A stretch of 12,801 nucleotides of DNA, taken from NCBI GenBank assembly GCA_030630935.1, contig DAOVMD010000034.1:1-12801 (forward strand), written 5' to 3'. Position 1 is the stretch's first letter. Each line of letters begins with the position of its first letter. A program made the translations under genes and the position numbers. The notes under the pieces are model-generated. The model saw nothing but the letters and a program-made list of their open reading frames with translations. It did not search any database and was not told the origin of the DNA. Positions 502 through 8,299 of the stretch are shown one piece after another. The stretch is from Candidatus Mcinerneyibacteriota bacterium (GTDB lineage Bacteria; AUK180; JAQVHJ01).

Positions 502-1854
502 ATGAAAAAAATTAATGATATTCCTATCAAGCTTTTGTTATTACTTCCGGCAGATGCGATACATCGATTTAAAGTCGGCAATTTCAAGAAATCATTAAGA
601 TATGCCCCTCTAACCTTAACTTATTTAGCAGCGTTAATCCCTGATGATATTAATGTTGATTTGCGTATTCTTGATGAAGGGGTTGAATCCTTGAGCTCAC
701 TCCAATTTGAACCTGACCTTGTAGGCATGAGTGTTATGACCGGAACTGCGCCTAGGGCTTACTACCTTTCGGAGAAGTTTAGGGAGAAAGGCGCAAAAGT
801 TGTTTTGGGCGGGGTTCACCCAACTCTATTACCCGATGAAGCAAAGAAATATGGTGATTCTGTGGTAGTTGGGTTTGGGGAAAGGAGTTTTCCGCAGCTT
901 TTATATGATTTTCTAAGAAATGATCTTAAACAAACCTATATTGACACCGAGGATCTTCCTTATGATAAAATTCCCATCCCGCGCCGTGACTTATTGAATA
1001 GGAGAAATTACATTACTGTAAACACCATGATGGCGACGAGGGGTTGTCCGAATAACTGTAAATTCTGTGCAGTACCTCATGTATGGAAGCATCACTTTTT
1101 CCGCAGGCCAATTCCTGATATTATCAATGAGATTCAACAATTTAAGGATAAGAAAGTAATATTCATTGATGTTAATCTTCTGGAAGATGATGATTATACC
1201 AGAAGGTTACTAAAAGCATTGCTTGACCTTAAGCTGAAGTGGGTAGGATTATCCAATACCAAACCCCTGTTTAATCCGGAGGTGTTCTCATTAATTGTTA
1301 AGAGTGGGTGCAAGGGTTTATTAATTGGCTTTGAATCTATTATGGAGGGTTCTCTTTCGGGAATAAATAAAAAATTCAGCAATGTAAATAAATATACAGA
1401 ATTACTTAAGAAACTTCATGATAATGGTATCAGGGTCAATGGAACATTTCTATTTGGAACCGACAACGATACCCTTGATATTTTTGAAAAGACCGTTGAA
1501 TTTGTTGACCGGGTTAAGATTGACCTTCCCCGGTACTCCGTCTTTACTCCCTATCCAGGGACACCGGTATTTAGGGAACTGGAATCACAGGGCAGGATAC
1601 TGGAATATAATTGGGCAATGTATGATGTTGAGCATGTTGTATTCAAACCGAAGAATATGACACCTGAAGAATTGCAAGAGGGTTTGCATTGGGCTTGGAA
1701 CCAAACTTATCGAACAGGTTCAATCTTCAGAAGATTATCCGGTACTTTTTCTATATTTCATTATATGCTCTTTGCCAATTTTGGTTATAAATTCTATGCA
1801 AAGAAATTACCCGGCTATACAAGAGAAGTTATGTTAGAAGGTGGAATGATATGA
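502..1854 (+). CDS. Cobalamin-binding-type radical SAM enzyme (operon paralogue 1)
   Basis: This is a predicted class B radical SAM enzyme of 450 residues. Residues ~1-140 look like a B12-binding fold: the core GxSVMTGTAPRAYxLSxxFR is followed by VVLGGVHPTLLPDEA and a GFGE segment near 124-127, but there is no DxHxxG lower-ligand motif. The radical SAM domain starts at about 175, with the iron-sulfur ligands in RGCPNNCKFC (Cys182, Cys186, Cys189), and the barrel continues through GFES (276-279), FGTD and the PYPGTP loop (350-355). The C-terminal ~90 residues have the YDxxHVVFKPKxMTPEEL pattern often seen in B12-radical SAM methyltransferases, then an aromatic-rich tail. The family usually C-methylates or rearranges unactivated carbons using S-adenosylmethionine; the substrate is unknown. 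The ATG is preceded by AGGTGA. The stop overlaps the next start as ATGA. It lacks the W-x-MEPL segment of the other two paralogues and is the most divergent. Confidence 0.88.
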   Translation: MKKINDIPIKLLLLLPADAIHRFKVGNFKKSLRYAPLTLTYLAALIPDDINVDLRILDEGVESLSSLQFEPDLVGMSVMTGTAPRAYYLSEKFREKGAKVVLGGVHPTLLPDEAKKYGDSVVVGFGERSFPQLLYDFLRNDLKQTYIDTEDLPYDKIPIPRRDLLNRRNYITVNTMMATRGCPNNCKFCAVPHVWKHHFFRRPIPDIINEIQQFKDKKVIFIDVNLLEDDDYTRRLLKALLDLKLKWVGLSNTKPLFNPEVFSLIVKSGCKGLLIGFESIMEGSLSGINKKFSNVNKYTELLKKLHDNGIRVNGTFLFGTDNDTLDIFEKTVEFVDRVKIDLPRYSVFTPYPGTPVFRELESQGRILEYNWAMYDVEHVVFKPKNMTPEELQEGLHWAWNQTYRTGSIFRRLSGTFSIFHYMLFANFGYKFYAKKLPGYTREVMLEGGMI

Positions 1855-3182
1855 AGATTTGTTTTATTCTTCCCGGAGTTGGGCAGAAGAAGAAGTATAT
1901 CAAGACCTGGCAAATGGAACCATTAATGATTGCACAGTTGGCAGCCCTAACCCCAAAGGACGTTGAAATATCTTTTTATGATGATCGAATTGAGGATATA
2001 AATTACCAGGACGATGCAGACCTGGTTGCAATAACGGTTGAGACATATACCGCGAAACGTGCATATGCAATTGCAGATAAGTTTCGAAAAAGAGATATTC
2101 CCGTTCTCATGGGTGGCTATCATCCAACCTTAATTCCTGATGAAGTAATGGAATTTACTGATTCAGTTTTAATTGGTGAGGCTGAAGGTGTCTGGCATGA
2201 AATTATTTCGGATTTAAGAAGTGGTCAACTGAAAAAAAGATATGAAAAACCTTTAACAGAATTTCCTAAGGGTATATTCCCGGATAGATCGATTTATCAA
2301 AGTAAAAAATATGTTCCTGTAAGCTTAGTTGAATCAGCCCGGGGTTGTATATTTAACTGTGGGTTCTGTTCTGTTACAAAGTTTTTTAATCAAAGATATA
2401 AACCACGGGATATTGCAGATGTAGTTGAAGACATTAAAAGAAGTGGTAAGAAAAAGTTCTTTATCGTGGATGATAACATTATTGTTGACATAAACCGAAC
2501 AAAAGAATTATTGAAAGCCTTAATTCCCCTGAAGATTCAATGGTTAGGACAAGGTAGTATCCAGGTTGCAAAAGATCCGGAGCTCTTGCAGCTCTTAAGA
2601 AGATCCGGGTGCAGAATTCTATTGATCGGATTTGAGTCCTTGAATAAAGATGCACTTGCTAAAATGAATAAATCATGGAACCTGTCTCTTGGTGATTATA
2701 CGAACTTGGTTAAGAAGATACATAGGGCAGGGATTGGGATATATGCCACGTTTGTTTTTGGAATAGGGGATGATACAGAAAAAACCTTTGATGAAACTTA
2801 TCAATTTGCACTGGATAATAAGTTTTTCTTTGCTGCATTTAATCACTTTGTTCCTTTTCCCGGGACTGATATTTATAATCAGTTTAAAGAAGAAAACCAA
2901 TTACTATTTGAAAAGTGGTGGTTACAACAAGGGTATCAATATGGAGCAATTGCATTTAAACCGTCAATCCTCAGTCCGGAAAAGTTATCTCAATTATGTG
3001 TCCAAACTCGAAGACGATTTTTTTCCCCGGGATCCATCTTCTACAGAGCTTTAAATATGAGGGCTAATTTGCAATCAATTTCATTTGCAATTATGTATTT
3101 CAGTCATAATTTTCTACAGAGAAAGGAAGTAGAAATGAAATACGGGATACCACTCGGGGAAGGTTTGGAAAAAGAAGAATGA
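1851..3182 (+). CDS. Cobalamin-binding-type radical SAM enzyme (operon paralogue 2)
   Basis: This 443-residue enzyme has the same two-domain plan. The N-terminal B12-binding-like domain carries TWQMEPLMIAQLAALTP (~19-35), the ITVETYTAKRAYAIAD strand-helix (61-76), MGGYHPTLIPDE (87-98) and IGEAEGVW. The radical SAM domain has ARGCIFNCGFC with cluster cysteines at 166, 170 and 173, then FIVDDN, GFES (260-263), a GIGDDTEKTF segment and VPFPGTDIY. A GAAGGTGGA ribosome site sits five bases before the ATG. The start overlaps the previous stop, and the stop overlaps the next start, by four bases each. The C-terminal tail (VEMKYGIPLG) resembles that of the following gene (IKSKYGINKS), so these two are the closest pair by eye. 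The reaction is probably a cobalamin-dependent radical methylation or related carbon chemistry; the substrate is not known. Confidence 0.88.
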   Translation: MKICFILPGVGQKKKYIKTWQMEPLMIAQLAALTPKDVEISFYDDRIEDINYQDDADLVAITVETYTAKRAYAIADKFRKRDIPVLMGGYHPTLIPDEVMEFTDSVLIGEAEGVWHEIISDLRSGQLKKRYEKPLTEFPKGIFPDRSIYQSKKYVPVSLVESARGCIFNCGFCSVTKFFNQRYKPRDIADVVEDIKRSGKKKFFIVDDNIIVDINRTKELLKALIPLKIQWLGQGSIQVAKDPELLQLLRRSGCRILLIGFESLNKDALAKMNKSWNLSLGDYTNLVKKIHRAGIGIYATFVFGIGDDTEKTFDETYQFALDNKFFFAAFNHFVPFPGTDIYNQFKEENQLLFEKWWLQQGYQYGAIAFKPSILSPEKLSQLCVQTRRRFFSPGSIFYRALNMRANLQSISFAIMYFSHNFLQRKEVEMKYGIPLGEGLEKEE

Positions 3183-4486
3183 AAATAACTTTAATTAAAC
3201 CTGCAATGACTCGGTTAATCAAACACAGTAAATTTATCTCCTGGAACATGGAACCCCTGGCAATAGCTATAATTGCCGGAATTACCCCTCCTGAATTTGA
3301 GTTGGAGTTTTTTGATGAGCGTGTTGAAGTTATCCCCCTTGAAATTAACGCGGATTTAATCGGAATCACCGTTGAAACCTTCACTGCACGAAGGGCTTAT
3401 GAACTTGCTGATTCCCTCAGGAGACAGGGAAAGAAGGTTATACTCGGTGGATATCACACTACTCTTATCCCGGACGAAGCCAAAGAGCATGCTGATTCTA
3501 TAGTAATCGGAGAAGTAGAAGGGGTTTGGGACAAGGTTTTAGATGATCTTAAACAGAACAATTTCAAGCCGGAATATAAATCGGAAGAAATTTCTTTTTC
3601 CCAAACCTTACCGGACAGAAGTATCTATAAGGGCAAGAAATATCTCCCCATTTCACTGATTCAGACTTCCAGAGGCTGTCCTTATCAATGTGAATTCTGT
3701 GCTACCGGTTCTATTTACAAGGGCAAATTCCGGTTTAGAGAAATTGATGATATTGTTAGAGAGTTAAGTCAAATTAAGAATCGAAAGATTCTATTTGTGG
3801 ATGAAAACTTTGTAATTAATCCGGACCGGGCAAGAGATTTATTCCAGGCCATAATTCCCCTGAAGAAAAAATGGGTAGCCCAGGTTAGTCCGTGCTTAAT
3901 TAATAATCCGGAATTAATCCCACTCATGAAACAAAGCGGCTGTGCCGGATTGCTGCTGGGGTTTGAGTCAACCGATAAAGATTCATTACTCAAAATGAAT
4001 AAGCAGGTTAATCTTCAAGCTGATTTTCGGGAACTAATTAGAATTCTGCATAAGCATCATATCCTGGTATACGCCTCATTTATTGCAGGATATAACGAAT
4101 CATTTGAAGATGTTAAGACAGCTTTTAAATTATTACTTAAGGAGAAAGTTTTCCTGGCAGGATTCAGCCCTTTAACTCCTTATCCGGGAACTCCTCTATT
4201 TAAACGTCTTAGAGAAGAAGACCGGTTAATAACTTCTGATTGGTGGCTTCGGAATCCTTACCCTTATTGGGAATTTGTATTTAGGAAAAGTACCGGGGAA
4301 AGTTTTAATCAATTTAATTCCGAGCTTCATCGAATAAGGGATAAATTTTACAGTTGGAAAAATATATTCAAACGTTTTTCCCTGACCTGGGCAATTAAAT
4401 CACCCGGTTATGCCTATATATTCTTCATGGTAAATCAGGGAGCTCGGAAAGAGATTAAATCTAAGTATGGAATAAATAAATCATGA
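3179..4486 (+). CDS. Cobalamin-binding-type radical SAM enzyme (operon paralogue 3)
   Basis: This third paralogue has 435 residues. The N-terminal domain repeats the signatures of the second gene: SWNMEPLAIAIIAGITP (~21-37), ITVETFTARRAYELAD (63-78), LGGYHTTLIPDEA and IGEVEGVW. The radical SAM cluster motif is SRGCPYQCEFC (Cys167, Cys171, Cys174), followed by FVDEN, GFES (261-264), an AGYNESFEDV segment and TPYPGTPLF. The sequence closely tracks paralogue 2, consistent with tandem duplication and later divergence. The C-terminal part has WWLRNPYPYWEFVFR and an aromatic-rich segment (YAYIFFMVNQ) that could contact a membrane or a hydrophobic substrate (inference). The ATG overlaps the previous stop by four bases, as does the stop with the next gene. 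A stand-alone function in another pathway is unlikely given this packing. Confidence 0.87.
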   Translation: MKITLIKPAMTRLIKHSKFISWNMEPLAIAIIAGITPPEFELEFFDERVEVIPLEINADLIGITVETFTARRAYELADSLRRQGKKVILGGYHTTLIPDEAKEHADSIVIGEVEGVWDKVLDDLKQNNFKPEYKSEEISFSQTLPDRSIYKGKKYLPISLIQTSRGCPYQCEFCATGSIYKGKFRFREIDDIVRELSQIKNRKILFVDENFVINPDRARDLFQAIIPLKKKWVAQVSPCLINNPELIPLMKQSGCAGLLLGFESTDKDSLLKMNKQVNLQADFRELIRILHKHHILVYASFIAGYNESFEDVKTAFKLLLKEKVFLAGFSPLTPYPGTPLFKRLREEDRLITSDWWLRNPYPYWEFVFRKSTGESFNQFNSELHRIRDKFYSWKNIFKRFSLTWAIKSPGYAYIFFMVNQGARKEIKSKYGINKS

Positions 4487-5592
4487 GCAGGTTTTCAATT
4501 AATTTAGCTGCAGCTAATGATGAGAAGGAACTTCATGAAATCTTAAGGAATATTTACATGGAAGGTTCAATGAAATTAACTCAGAGACGTGAACCTGATT
4601 TCTTTAATAGTTTAGAAATTGACGGGAAAATAACCCAGGTAGTTTTAGGAAAAGATTTAAAAAAAAATAAGATTATCGGATTTGGGCTTAGGGCAATTCG
4701 CGAATTATTTGTTAATGGAGAAGTTTCTGATATCGGTTATATTGGAAATCTTCGATTATTACCGGAATACAGAAATGGTACTATGCTGGCAAGAGGATTT
4801 AAGTTTTTCAAAGAACTTCACAAGGATAACCGCGTGAAAATTTACTTAACGAGTATTGTGGAAGATAATGAATCTGCCTTAAAACTTTTGACCTCAGGGA
4901 AGGCTGGTTTACCTAAGTATAATGATTTCGGGAAGTATTTCACGAGGATGATAGGTTTAAAAAAAAGAAAACGTGTTGTTAGCAGAGGTGTAGAAATTTT
5001 CCAGGGAAATAGAAAAACACTTGATAAAATCTGTAAATTCTTAAATAATGTAGGGAAGGAGAAACAATTTTTTCCCTATTATACTCCTGAAAATTTTATT
5101 AAGCCGACAGGGTTATTAAGAGGATTAAGCGAATCAGATCTTTATTATATTGAAAAGAATGGTGAAATTCTTGGAGTTATTGGGATTTGGTGTCAGGGAA
5201 ATTTTAAGCAAACCGTTGTAAGTGATTATTCTATTGGTTTGAAGATATTAAGGGTTCCCTGGAATTTCGTTTCGAGTATATTGGACATACCTAAACTGCC
5301 GGGACCTGGAAAGTATCTTAATTATTTTTATACCGGGTTAATCGCGGTTAAGAATAATGATGAGGATATTTTTAAAATGCTTATTGAGAAAGCACGTGAT
5401 GTCGGGAGAAAAGCAAACTTCGATTTTATGATATCCGGATTACATGAAAGGGATAGTTTAAATAGTGTAATTGAAAGTTATAGAGGGTACAAATTAAAGA
5501 CCAGAATTTTTATTGTGCATTATGATGACGGCTTGGATACTTTCAAGCAGCTGGATGACAGGATTCCATATCTGGAGGTGGGAACCTTATGA
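4483..5592 (+). CDS. GNAT-like acyltransferase, probably two fused GNAT domains
   Basis: This 369-residue protein shows an acetyl-CoA-type GNAT fold in its first half: ANDEKELHEILRNIY near the start, a KNKIIGFGLRAIRELFVNG beta pair (61-79), then SDIGYIGNLRLLPEYRNGTMLARGF (82-106), which resembles the V-x-P-x-Y-R-x-x-G-x-x-x-x-L acyl-CoA-binding motif A. Next comes YLTSIVEDNESALKLL, a typical strand 5/helix 4. The second half (~168-350) repeats the idea with YYIEKNGEILGVIGIW (221-236) and a later helix, but without a clear motif A, so it may be a degenerate acceptor-binding domain. No signal peptide or membrane span is seen. It overlaps the upstream radical SAM gene by four bases and the next gene by four bases. 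The likely role is acyl transfer to an amine or hydroxyl of the operon's product (inference). Confidence 0.62.
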   Translation: MSRFSINLAAANDEKELHEILRNIYMEGSMKLTQRREPDFFNSLEIDGKITQVVLGKDLKKNKIIGFGLRAIRELFVNGEVSDIGYIGNLRLLPEYRNGTMLARGFKFFKELHKDNRVKIYLTSIVEDNESALKLLTSGKAGLPKYNDFGKYFTRMIGLKKRKRVVSRGVEIFQGNRKTLDKICKFLNNVGKEKQFFPYYTPENFIKPTGLLRGLSESDLYYIEKNGEILGVIGIWCQGNFKQTVVSDYSIGLKILRVPWNFVSSILDIPKLPGPGKYLNYFYTGLIAVKNNDEDIFKMLIEKARDVGRKANFDFMISGLHERDSLNSVIESYRGYKLKTRIFIVHYDDGLDTFKQLDDRIPYLEVGTL

Positions 5593-6302
5593 AAAAGAGT
5601 CCGTTGATTGGAAAGATTATTGATAAACATAAATTGACTGAAGAGAATATTAATGAAATGTATACTTTGTTTCAGAAATATTTTCAATGTGCTGAGAAAT
5701 CATTTCGTGATGATTTAAACGAGAAACAATTTAGGATATTAATTCTTGAACAGGATTCTCAAAAGATAATTGGCTTCTCAAGTGTTTTAATCATGGAAAT
5801 AATGGTAGAAAAGAGAAAGATACACATAGTTTTCTCAGGGGATACGATTGTTGATGAAAAAAGGCGAAACGATAATGTCTTGATCAAGAGTTTCATTGAG
5901 TTGAATTTGAAATTTATTTCCAAGTATGAAAAGTTATATTGGTTTCTTATTTCTATGGGGTATAGAACATATAGAATTTTACCGATTCTTTTTAAAGAGT
6001 TCTGGCCAAGATACGATAAACCAACACCCCCGGAAATTAAGAAAATAATTGATATCACCGCTCAGAATAAATTCGGAATATATTATAATTCTAAAAGAGG
6101 AATCATTAAACCTAAAGCGAAAAATAAATTAAAGCCTCAATTCGCAATGATACCGTCTACAGGGTTAAAGGATCCACACATTAAGTTCTTTATCGAGAAA
6201 AATCCCGGTTATATTCAAGGAGAAGAACTGGCGTGTATTACTGAGTTATCAAAAAAGAATTTCAATAAAACTCTTCTCAGGAGGTTTGGTTTTGATATCT
6301 AA
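5589..6302 (+). CDS. GNAT-like conserved protein with an SGDTIV motif
   Basis: This 237-residue soluble protein has a GNAT-like start: TEENINEMYTLFQKYFQCAEKSFRDDL then a LEQDSQKIIGFSSVLIMEI beta hairpin (53-71) and a VFSGDTIVDEKRR segment (81-93). The next segment, LYWFLISMGYRTYRILP, is a highly patterned block that I associate from memory with a conserved hypothetical GNAT-related family, but I cannot name the family with certainty. The usual acyl-CoA loop (R/Q-x-x-G-x-G/A) is not obvious, so catalytic activity is uncertain. A good GGAGGTG ribosome site lies at 5574-5580, eight bases before the ATG, which itself overlaps the preceding stop. The end overlaps the GH3 start region. A role as acyltransferase or binding partner of the GH3 enzyme is inferred only from position. 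Confidence 0.55.
   Translation: MKKSPLIGKIIDKHKLTEENINEMYTLFQKYFQCAEKSFRDDLNEKQFRILILEQDSQKIIGFSSVLIMEIMVEKRKIHIVFSGDTIVDEKRRNDNVLIKSFIELNLKFISKYEKLYWFLISMGYRTYRILPILFKEFWPRYDKPTPPEIKKIIDITAQNKFGIYYNSKRGIIKPKAKNKLKPQFAMIPSTGLKDPHIKFFIEKNPGYIQGEELACITELSKKNFNKTLLRRFGFDI
6279..6285 (+). promoter_or_regulatory. Ribosome binding site that decides the GH3 start
   Basis: AGGAGGT lies inside the end of the upstream coding region. It is directly next to the TTG at 6286 (no spacer) but six bases from the in-frame TTG at 6292, which favours 6292 as the start codon. Confidence 0.6.
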
Positions 6303-7845
6303 CTATTTCTCCTATTACCTAATGAAGGGAGAGTATAAAAGATTTATTAAAGCGATTTACCACCACAAAGAAACTCAATCTAACGTACTCTTTAATATTT
6401 TAATTGAGAACCAAACAACAGAGTTTGGAAATAAACACAATTTCTCAGGAATAAATTCTTTTTACGATTTCAGGAATAAAGTTAAAATCAATAATTATAA
6501 TGATTTTATTCCTTATCTTGAAAAAATAAAAGATGGCGGTCAGAACATTCTTACATCTCTCCCTGTTACAATACTTGAACCTACAGGTGGTTCTACATCC
6601 GGAACAAAATTAATCCCGTATAACCGGGGATTGAAGAAGGATTTCATTAGGGGAATATACCCATGGCTATTTGATTTCTTTAAGTCCCGTAAATCAATTC
6701 TGAAAGGAAGAAGTTACTGGAGTATTACTCCATCCACAATTAAACCATATCGGACCAAGGGCGGGATCCCGGTCGGGTTTAAAGATGATACCGATTACTT
6801 CGGAATCGCGGGAAAGTTTCTTAAGTGTGGATTAATTGAACCGGAAGGCCTTGAATCAATCGAGAATCATGACCAATTTTATTACCGAACCCTGTTACAT
6901 TTATTACGGGTAAAAAAACTTTCCTTTATCTCTGCCTGGCATCCAAGTTTGTTGATAATTCTAATAGATAAAATGCAAGAATTTAAAAATGAATTAATAG
7001 AAGATGTTCGGATTGGTCAATCAAGATTGGAACCCGGCAGGAAATTCAAGCCGATGAAAAAACGAAGTGATTTCTTAAAATCAAATCTGAATCCTAAAAC
7101 TATCTGGCCCGGGTTAACCACCATCAGCTGTTGGACAGATGGATCTGCAAAAATGTTTGTTAACAGGTTAAAGGAAAAATTTCCGGAAATTGAGATTCAG
7201 GGAAAGGGGCTTCTTGCAACAGAGGGAATCGTATCATTTCCATTTCAAAAGTTAGATGGCAAAATCCTTTCTATCAGGTCTCATTTCTTTGAATTCATTG
7301 ATTATCAAACTCAGGATGTTAAATATTCCTGGGAACTGGAGAAAGGAAAGTTTTATACTGTTATAATCACAACTTCAGGGGGATTTTACAGGTATAACCT
7401 ACATGATATTGTGGAAGTAACCGGATTCTATAATGGTGTTCCCCTGCTTAGATTCTGCGGGAAAGAAGACTTAATCTCTGATTATCGTGGAGAAAAATTG
7501 AATGAATTCTTTGTACGTGATTGTGTTGATCTAATTATTAAACCACTTAATCTTAATCCCGACCTATTACGTTTCAGACCAGTAGAAAAAAAAACATTTC
7601 AATATGAATTAGAGATCTATCTTGGGAAGACTATAAAATTAACAGAGCTAACAGATTTAGAAAAGAAACTGGAACAATTGCTTTGTAAAAATATTCATTA
7701 TAAATATGCCAGGGATATTGGACAAATCGATCCGGTTAGAATTAAAATATTGAAATCCGATAAAAAAATACTTGAAAAGTATATTAAAGAATTATCTCAG
7801 AATAGAAATAAATTGGGAATCATTAAACCATTCATAATAAATTAA
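6292..7845 (+). CDS. GH3-family acyl-adenylate-forming enzyme (amidosynthetase-like)
   Basis: GH3 proteins belong to the ANL superfamily; they activate a carboxylate with ATP and usually join it to an amino group. The ATP-binding loop appears as LEPTGGSTSGTKLIPY (near residue 100), followed by a CWTDGSAKMF block, the LLATEGIVSFPF block (near 307-318) equivalent to the ATEG/ASE motif, and TTSGGFYRYNLHDIVEVTGF plus CGKEDLISDYRGEKLNE in the hinge region. The length of ~517 residues fits the family. I chose TTG at 6292 because the AGGAGGT site (6279-6285) lies six bases upstream; TTG at 6286 would touch the SD, and ATG at 6322 is a shorter alternative. The start overlaps the previous stop by ~11 bases. 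It is the last gene of the operon and supplies the only obvious ATP-dependent activation step. Its acyl and amine substrates cannot be read from the sequence. Confidence 0.85.
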   Translation: MISNYFSYYLMKGEYKRFIKAIYHHKETQSNVLFNILIENQTTEFGNKHNFSGINSFYDFRNKVKINNYNDFIPYLEKIKDGGQNILTSLPVTILEPTGGSTSGTKLIPYNRGLKKDFIRGIYPWLFDFFKSRKSILKGRSYWSITPSTIKPYRTKGGIPVGFKDDTDYFGIAGKFLKCGLIEPEGLESIENHDQFYYRTLLHLLRVKKLSFISAWHPSLLIILIDKMQEFKNELIEDVRIGQSRLEPGRKFKPMKKRSDFLKSNLNPKTIWPGLTTISCWTDGSAKMFVNRLKEKFPEIEIQGKGLLATEGIVSFPFQKLDGKILSIRSHFFEFIDYQTQDVKYSWELEKGKFYTVIITTSGGFYRYNLHDIVEVTGFYNGVPLLRFCGKEDLISDYRGEKLNEFFVRDCVDLIIKPLNLNPDLLRFRPVEKKTFQYELEIYLGKTIKLTELTDLEKKLEQLLCKNIHYKYARDIGQIDPVRIKILKSDKKILEKYIKELSQNRNKLGIIKPFIIN

Positions 7846-8022: not shown

Positions 8023-8299
8023 CTATATAACTGCGCATATTAGTTTCGACATTTTTTATTGACATTACTAAAAAAAGGAAGTGTTCTTATATAATTTGTT
8101 ATGTTATTTTTATAAATATCCTGTACACAACCACTTTAATAAACCTTTTATGTTTGTGCCTGTTGTACTAATAACTTATTATAGTAAAAAGTATTCCTTA
8201 AAATTATTATTCATGTCCATTGCACGATTGGTCAATTGACCAATCGTGCAACGGACAACAATGTTTTTAATGTCGAAACAAATATGCGCAGATATATAG
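8023..8299. mobile_element. Fold-back, MITE-like element of ~277 bp
   Basis: The 31-nt end 8023-8053 and the reverse complement of 8269-8299 agree at 29 of 31 bases (shared cores CTGCGCATATT and GTTTCGACATT). The inner flanks also show weaker inverted similarity: GACAT followed by AAGGAA- and TAA-rich words occurs on both arms. The centre has GTACACAAC facing GTTGTAC (around 8121-8167). The whole unit could therefore fold back on itself. No open reading frame for a transposase is inside and no clear target-site duplication was found. Alternatives are a large structured RNA or a recombination site. The right arm carries an extra ~50 bp with the perfect palindrome at 8220-8251. Confidence 0.5.
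8220..8251. repeat. Perfect 32-bp palindrome
   Basis: The sequence reads the same on both strands from TTGCACGATTGGTCAA (8220-8235) through its exact complement (8236-8251), with no loop. After one mismatch (8219/8252) pairing resumes for five more base pairs, to 8214 and 8257. Zero-spacer symmetry of this length is more typical of a dimeric protein-binding site or a cruciform than of a terminator. It sits asymmetrically inside the fold-back element. Confidence 0.85.

Follow-up and report, generated by a model that had tools for sequence, protein, structure and literature searches.

A conserved and apparently undescribed biosynthetic gene unit combining B12-type radical SAM enzymes, GNAT-like proteins and a GH3-type ligase

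The six genes found between positions 502 and 7845 of the window (the whole 12,801-nucleotide stretch analysed, contig DAOVMD010000034.1 of assembly GCA_030630935.1 from a Candidatus Mcinerneyibacteriota bacterium) constitute one operon and serve one biosynthetic pathway, a conclusion that is well supported, and five of them form a core that very probably builds one small molecule, since these genes have stayed together, frequently in an unchanged order, across distant lineages. The set is a real, conserved biosynthetic unit of known protein families and, apparently, an undescribed one: neither NCBIfam nor the literature, which was searched in open-access full text, yielded a description or a characterised cluster matching it. 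Within that scope the impression of the initial annotation, that this combination of genes belongs to no described pathway, was supported.

All six genes lie on the + strand in the order R1-R2-R3-N4-N5-GH3, each open reading frame being confirmed at its place, and they are joined by four 4-bp overlaps of the ATGA type and by a fifth, between N5 and GH3, of 17 bp. Among promoter-like matches in the scanned region, the best (TTGACA-18-TAAAAT at 456–485, + strand, 11/12, its second hexamer preceded by TG) stops 17 bases 5′ of the R1 ATG, at position 485; the number of promoter-like matches in that region does not exceed chance expectation. No cobalamin riboswitch was detected in the seven loci scanned, namely the window and six related loci. 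On its 3′ side the operon is followed by genes that we take from their translations to be der, plsY, gpsA, an HU-type gene and a MerR-type regulator, and by a tRNA-Pro. Two further elements occur in the flanks. Upstream, an Acido-Lenti-1 RNA (RF01687) match is present at 324–369 on the + strand (40.6 bits, the cut-off being 37), and a portion of its hairpin recurs at 283–301. Between GH3 and der, at 8023–8299, 31-bp inverted repeats (94% complementary) flank 215 bp containing a near-perfect palindrome with 27-bp arms (8209–8262); to judge from its sequence, this element looks like a small non-autonomous mobile element.

The first three genes, R1 (502–1854), R2 (1851–3182) and R3 (3179–4486), encode B12-binding (class B) radical SAM proteins, scoring above the Pfam cut-offs for both Radical_SAM (65.1, 61.4 and 70.4 bits, respectively) and an N-terminal B12-binding domain (52.3, 34.8 and 33.5 bits), the cut-off of 32.1 bits for the latter being passed only narrowly by R2 and R3. 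The presence of this domain suggests that all three would use cobalamin. Each carries the CxxxCxxC motif (CPNNCKFC in R1, CIFNCGFC in R2 and CPYQCEFC in R3), which is kept in all aligned orthologues. R1 and R2 represent two core subfamilies, R1 being 44–51% identical to its orthologues in other clusters and R2 43–51% identical to its own. Phylogenetically, R1 falls in a group of 14 rows (support 93/84) having a sister group, R1′ (99/99), whereas the R2 clade of 31 rows (100/99) comprises several paralogous subgroups common to distant genomes; within this clade R3 is a basal, divergent extra member, no orthologue of which was seen in other genomes. Solo radical SAM genes on Paraclostridium, Treponema, Synechocystis and Aureibacter plasmids, 32–37% identical to R1, were placed by the tree outside the R1 group.

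The nearest NCBIfam models to the R proteins are those for BchE, HpnJ, the PhpK type and the ladderane-associated family, and because all of these score far below cut-off the reaction of R1, R2 and R3 is not assignable from them. BchE, HpnJ and HpnR, of the bacteriochlorophyll and hopanoid pathways, have the same two-domain architecture and act on large hydrophobic substrates, but the best scores of the R proteins against their models are 98.5, 92 and 73 bits versus cut-offs of 481, 578 and 650, and the cluster is devoid of tetrapyrrole or hopanoid genes. Likewise, TIGR04072, the ladderane-associated family, is a B12-binding radical SAM family of lipid biosynthesis, against whose cut-off of 360 bits the R proteins reach only 74–88. 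Methylases make up the majority of the cobalamin radical SAM enzymes, but there are other members, for instance BchE, an oxidative cyclase that depends on cobalamin (PMC13142503). Since BchE, which is not a methylase, is among these nearest, albeit distant, subfamily models, methylation would be only one option for the R proteins.

GH3 enzymes adenylate carboxylic acids and form amides. The last gene of the operon (6286–7845) encodes a predicted acyl-adenylating ligase of this type, whose N-terminal (142.5 bits) and central (GH3_M, 67.6 bits) Pfam domains are well above the cut-off of 23.6 bits, while the C-terminal domain reaches 17.6 bits against the same value. Translation more likely starts at the TTG at 6292 than at 6286, because the latter is too near the AGGAGG from which the former is well spaced. 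The protein belongs to the same family as the plant acyl acid amido synthetases JAR1 and GH3.12, with which it shares the nucleotide motifs and among which its nearest solved structures are found; unlike it, these plant enzymes carry out a single-enzyme hormone conjugation and are not encoded in operons alongside radical SAM or GNAT genes. All three nucleotide-binding motifs (TGGSTSGTK, LLATE and GFYRYNLHD) are intact by comparison with those described for OlsH, a bacterial GH3 protein that joins a free fatty acid to ornithine (PMC12493201). Like OlsH/OlsI of Singulisphaera acidiphila, the window offers a bacterial GH3-type ligase in an operon, the step expected of it being the coupling of a carboxylic acid with an amine at the expense of ATP; unlike that system, however, it has neither the OlsG methyltransferase nor the OlsI hydrolase and contains instead radical SAM and GNAT-like genes, and its GH3 scores 27.5 bits against the OlsH equivalog model, the NCBIfam cut-off being 620. 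In the GH3 tree, 20 cluster-associated sequences are separate from six solo GH3s (support 94/91), several branches being long. A GH3 scan of genome contigs returned only two distant GH3 loci, and the one examined (Obscuribacterales) was without other cluster genes. A different GH3 is found on a plasmid of Streptomyces sp. SGAir0924 (L094, 3917–5587), its neighbours being a type I polyketide synthase, a P450 and an aminotransferase, together with a copy of thrS; this is another cluster, unrelated to the set described here.

The open reading frames, their overlaps, the Pfam identities of R1–R3 and GH3 and the synteny elsewhere all hold. Of the two genes preceding GH3, which had been annotated as GNAT-like, N4 earns the label through its homologues, and for N5 the label is weak. 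Neither window protein has a significant Pfam match of its own. N4 (4483–5592, 369 amino acids) is a tandem GNAT-like protein on the strength of its relatives, 7 of 20 homologues giving Acetyltransf_1 matches (best 2.7e-6) and the N4 profile finding GNAT enzymes as its best, albeit weak, PDB matches in both halves. N5 (5589–6302) is small and probably GNAT-like: its profile matches the first domain of N4 (E 1.7e-4, probability 49%), and a few members match GNAT models weakly (best 5e-4). Invariant over 24 N5 homologues are SGDT, W118, G124, TY at 127–128 and C216. On inspection no clear canonical acetyl-CoA loop was seen in N4 or N5, the PDB profile search found no solved relative of N5, and single-sequence AlphaFold predictions gave mean pLDDT values of 35.6 (N5) and 35.1 (N4), hence no usable model. 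The host itself has a second N5 gene, 49% identical, on another contig (C197; L024, 3775–4497), where it adjoins genes named from their translations as Trk-like potassium transport genes and is without other cluster genes.

The evidence that these genes belong together comes from their recurrence elsewhere, which goes far beyond what chance would give. The order R1-R2-N4-N5-GH3 is found in at least five other genomes (G212, G511, G496, G498 and G502), and in a sixth (G111) R1-R2-N4-N5 occur in the same order on a contig that ends after N5. On a Citrobacter portucalensis plasmid the arrangement is N5-GH3-R1-R2-N4-R2-R2-PAP2, followed on the opposite strand by R1′ and a desaturase, the record naming the cluster genes only generically (radical SAM protein, N-acetyltransferase, GH3 auxin-responsive promoter family protein, hypothetical protein). 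In the probable Fusobacteriota group the set is present but rearranged, and in Leptotrichia-like genomes N4 lies several kb away from the other cluster genes. Altogether, 28 of the 32 N5 loci examined, the window included, have GH3 nearby, and in 25 of these 28 one or more R1/R2-type genes are present. Of the four N5 loci lacking GH3, two sit at the end of a contig, a third is on a contig of 5.5 kb, and the last is a true orphan, located in a single-contig genome (G464; L052, 10207–10905) that has no GH3, N4 or R1 orthologue. Conserved order in distant genomes was the sign by which the initial annotation proposed to recognise a dedicated pathway, and scattering of the genes in related genomes the outcome that would have spoken against it; the set being syntenic and co-inherited, the idea of a single dedicated pathway was upheld.

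When 386 genomes were surveyed with the N5 profile, five further carriers belonging to five families emerged, and N5 is present in 13 genomes of a 39-genome phylum and in 11 of a 98-genome phylum, the latter probably Fusobacteriota. No further carrier was found in three small phyla of N5 carriers, and among six other genomes of the host phylum none has N5 and none was matched by GH3. Among plasmid records the GH3, N5 and N4 queries share the same four best records, the only ones matched by N4. A viral-contig scan with the N5 profile returned nothing, and DNA-level searches with the Citrobacter cluster brought up neither another plasmid nor any match in E. coli genomes. N5-like matches in Azospirillum (~21% identity) were set aside, no core gene being labelled in those loci. 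The distribution is patchy even among close relatives and in part plasmid-borne, and the best reading is that the gene set spreads as a unit, i.e., as a mobile pathway.

Within the 98-genome phylum GH3 is found in 10 genomes, all of them carriers of N5 (itself in 11), N4 occurs in 11 genomes of which 10 are GH3 carriers, and R1 orthologues scoring 684–745 bits are present in the same 10, the next matches reaching at most 408 bits. A naive hypergeometric calculation gives 8e-13 to 7e-14 for this co-occurrence, a figure that ignores shared ancestry, the ten carriers representing three genera. Pairwise locus distances among N5, N4, GH3 and R1 correlate at 0.85–0.94; the correlations involving R2 are lower (0.59–0.64) because R2 paralogues are hard to pair.

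The neighbourhoods in Burkholderia, Acinetobacter, G515 and G212 indicate a core of N5-N4-GH3 that is usually joined by the radical SAM enzymes, with lipid-type oxidative enzymes able to stand beside these or in their place. In Burkholderia arboris the three core genes occur, without any R1/R2 gene within a 31-kb stretch, next to several FA_desaturase proteins, a PAP2, a Metal_hydrol/AurF-like protein, a Rieske oxygenase and an FAD-binding monooxygenase. In Acinetobacter baumannii overlapping genes N5-GH3-TolC-N4, devoid of radical SAM genes, lie downstream of HlyD-/EmrB-type exporter genes (presumably EmrAB/TolC-like, as named from their translations), an amidase and a LuxR-type regulator. 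The G515 cluster includes a PAP2 and an AurF-like protein, and that of G212 adjoins an Aas-like protein with MFS, acyltransferase and AMP-binding domains. Replacement of the radical SAM enzymes by oxidative ones is a lead and not a result, being seen in one aerobic locus, that of Burkholderia, whereas Acinetobacter has neither. A hydrophobic substrate had initially been surmised from aromatic-rich C-terminal tails of the radical SAM proteins; such a substrate is suggested by the desaturase, PAP2 and Aas-like accessory genes, which occur in some clusters only, and not by the tails.

In the pathway that can be envisaged, the core trio would make the scaffold: GH3 would adenylate a carboxylic acid (a fatty acid, probably, or another lipophilic one) at the expense of ATP and join it to an amine, and N5 and the tandem-GNAT N4 may be responsible for additional transfers of acyl or aminoacyl groups, as expected from their presumed family. 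R1 and R2, supplemented locally by R3, would perform an oxygen-independent radical modification of the hydrocarbon part, be it methylation, desaturation, hydroxylation or cyclisation, which would leave a modified acyl amide or amino lipid as the product. Secretion of this product is probable in Acinetobacter at least, where one operon holds both the trio and the EmrAB/TolC-like exporter. Taken as a whole, this explanation, in which GH3, N4 and N5 assemble an acyl amide or amino lipid that the radical SAM enzymes modify and whose genes travel as a mobile set, is the one towards which we lean, with moderate confidence.

Two narrower views of the product deserve consideration, and both appear rather doubtful. 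The product may be a structural membrane lipid of the ornithine- or glycine-lipid type with chains altered by the radical SAM enzymes, as suggested by the desaturase, PAP2 and Aas-like neighbours and by the precedent of OlsH, a GH3-type lyso-ornithine lipid synthetase (PMC12493201); yet the low score against the OlsH model, the patchy presence of the set even among close relatives and the exporter genes of Acinetobacter fit poorly with such a role. The same exporter, with the LuxR-type regulator and the amidase beside the Acinetobacter core, would instead suit a small acyl amide secreted as a signal or an antibiotic-like compound, for which the radical SAM enzymes would be tailoring C-methyltransferases, in keeping with the prevalence of methylases among cobalamin radical SAM enzymes (PMC13142503) and with the patchy, plasmid-borne distribution. 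This possibility, to which we assign the same limited likelihood, is at odds with the lack of any transporter or regulator in the window operon and with the fact that the accessory oxygenases and desaturases of the aerobic clusters are not methylases.

That the unit serves detoxification, GH3 conjugating an external toxic carboxylic acid much as plant GH3 enzymes do with hormones, seems improbable. The conjugation of acids is indeed what the plant enzymes, the nearest solved structures, are known for, and the Acinetobacter exporter could be accommodated, but the retention of one to five radical SAM and two GNAT-like genes with GH3 fits biosynthesis better than a one-step conjugation. As to a fortuitous packing of unrelated genes or an assembly error, the fragmentation of the host assembly (3.16 Mb in 471 contigs, 80% complete) could be invoked; the recurrence of the unit in independent genomes, including single-contig genomes and a complete plasmid, refutes this notion by synteny and leaves it a negligible probability.

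Returning to the assembly and radical modification of an acyl amide or amino lipid, it is conceivable, and offered tentatively, that a single lipo-amide pathway makes use of two chemistries around N5-N4-GH3, namely cobalamin radical SAM enzymes in anaerobes versus diiron desaturases, Rieske and AurF-like oxygenases in aerobes, the Citrobacter plasmid cluster having both radical SAM genes and a desaturase. If true, this would parallel the BchE/AcsF pair and imply oxidative, non-methylating roles for the R1 and R2 families.

To our knowledge, no reaction is known for the R1 and R2 families, and the products of bacterial GH3 ligases are mostly unknown. Some carriers are complete, apparently cultured genomes and their close relatives do not have the set, so that strain comparison and gene deletion offer ways to find the product. 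The operon exemplifies a widespread, unnamed biosynthetic unit, recognised through its co-inheritance in several distant lineages, a Citrobacter plasmid and probably Fusobacteriota among them, and provides a concrete setting for two cobalamin-type radical SAM families and for bacterial GH3 ligases.
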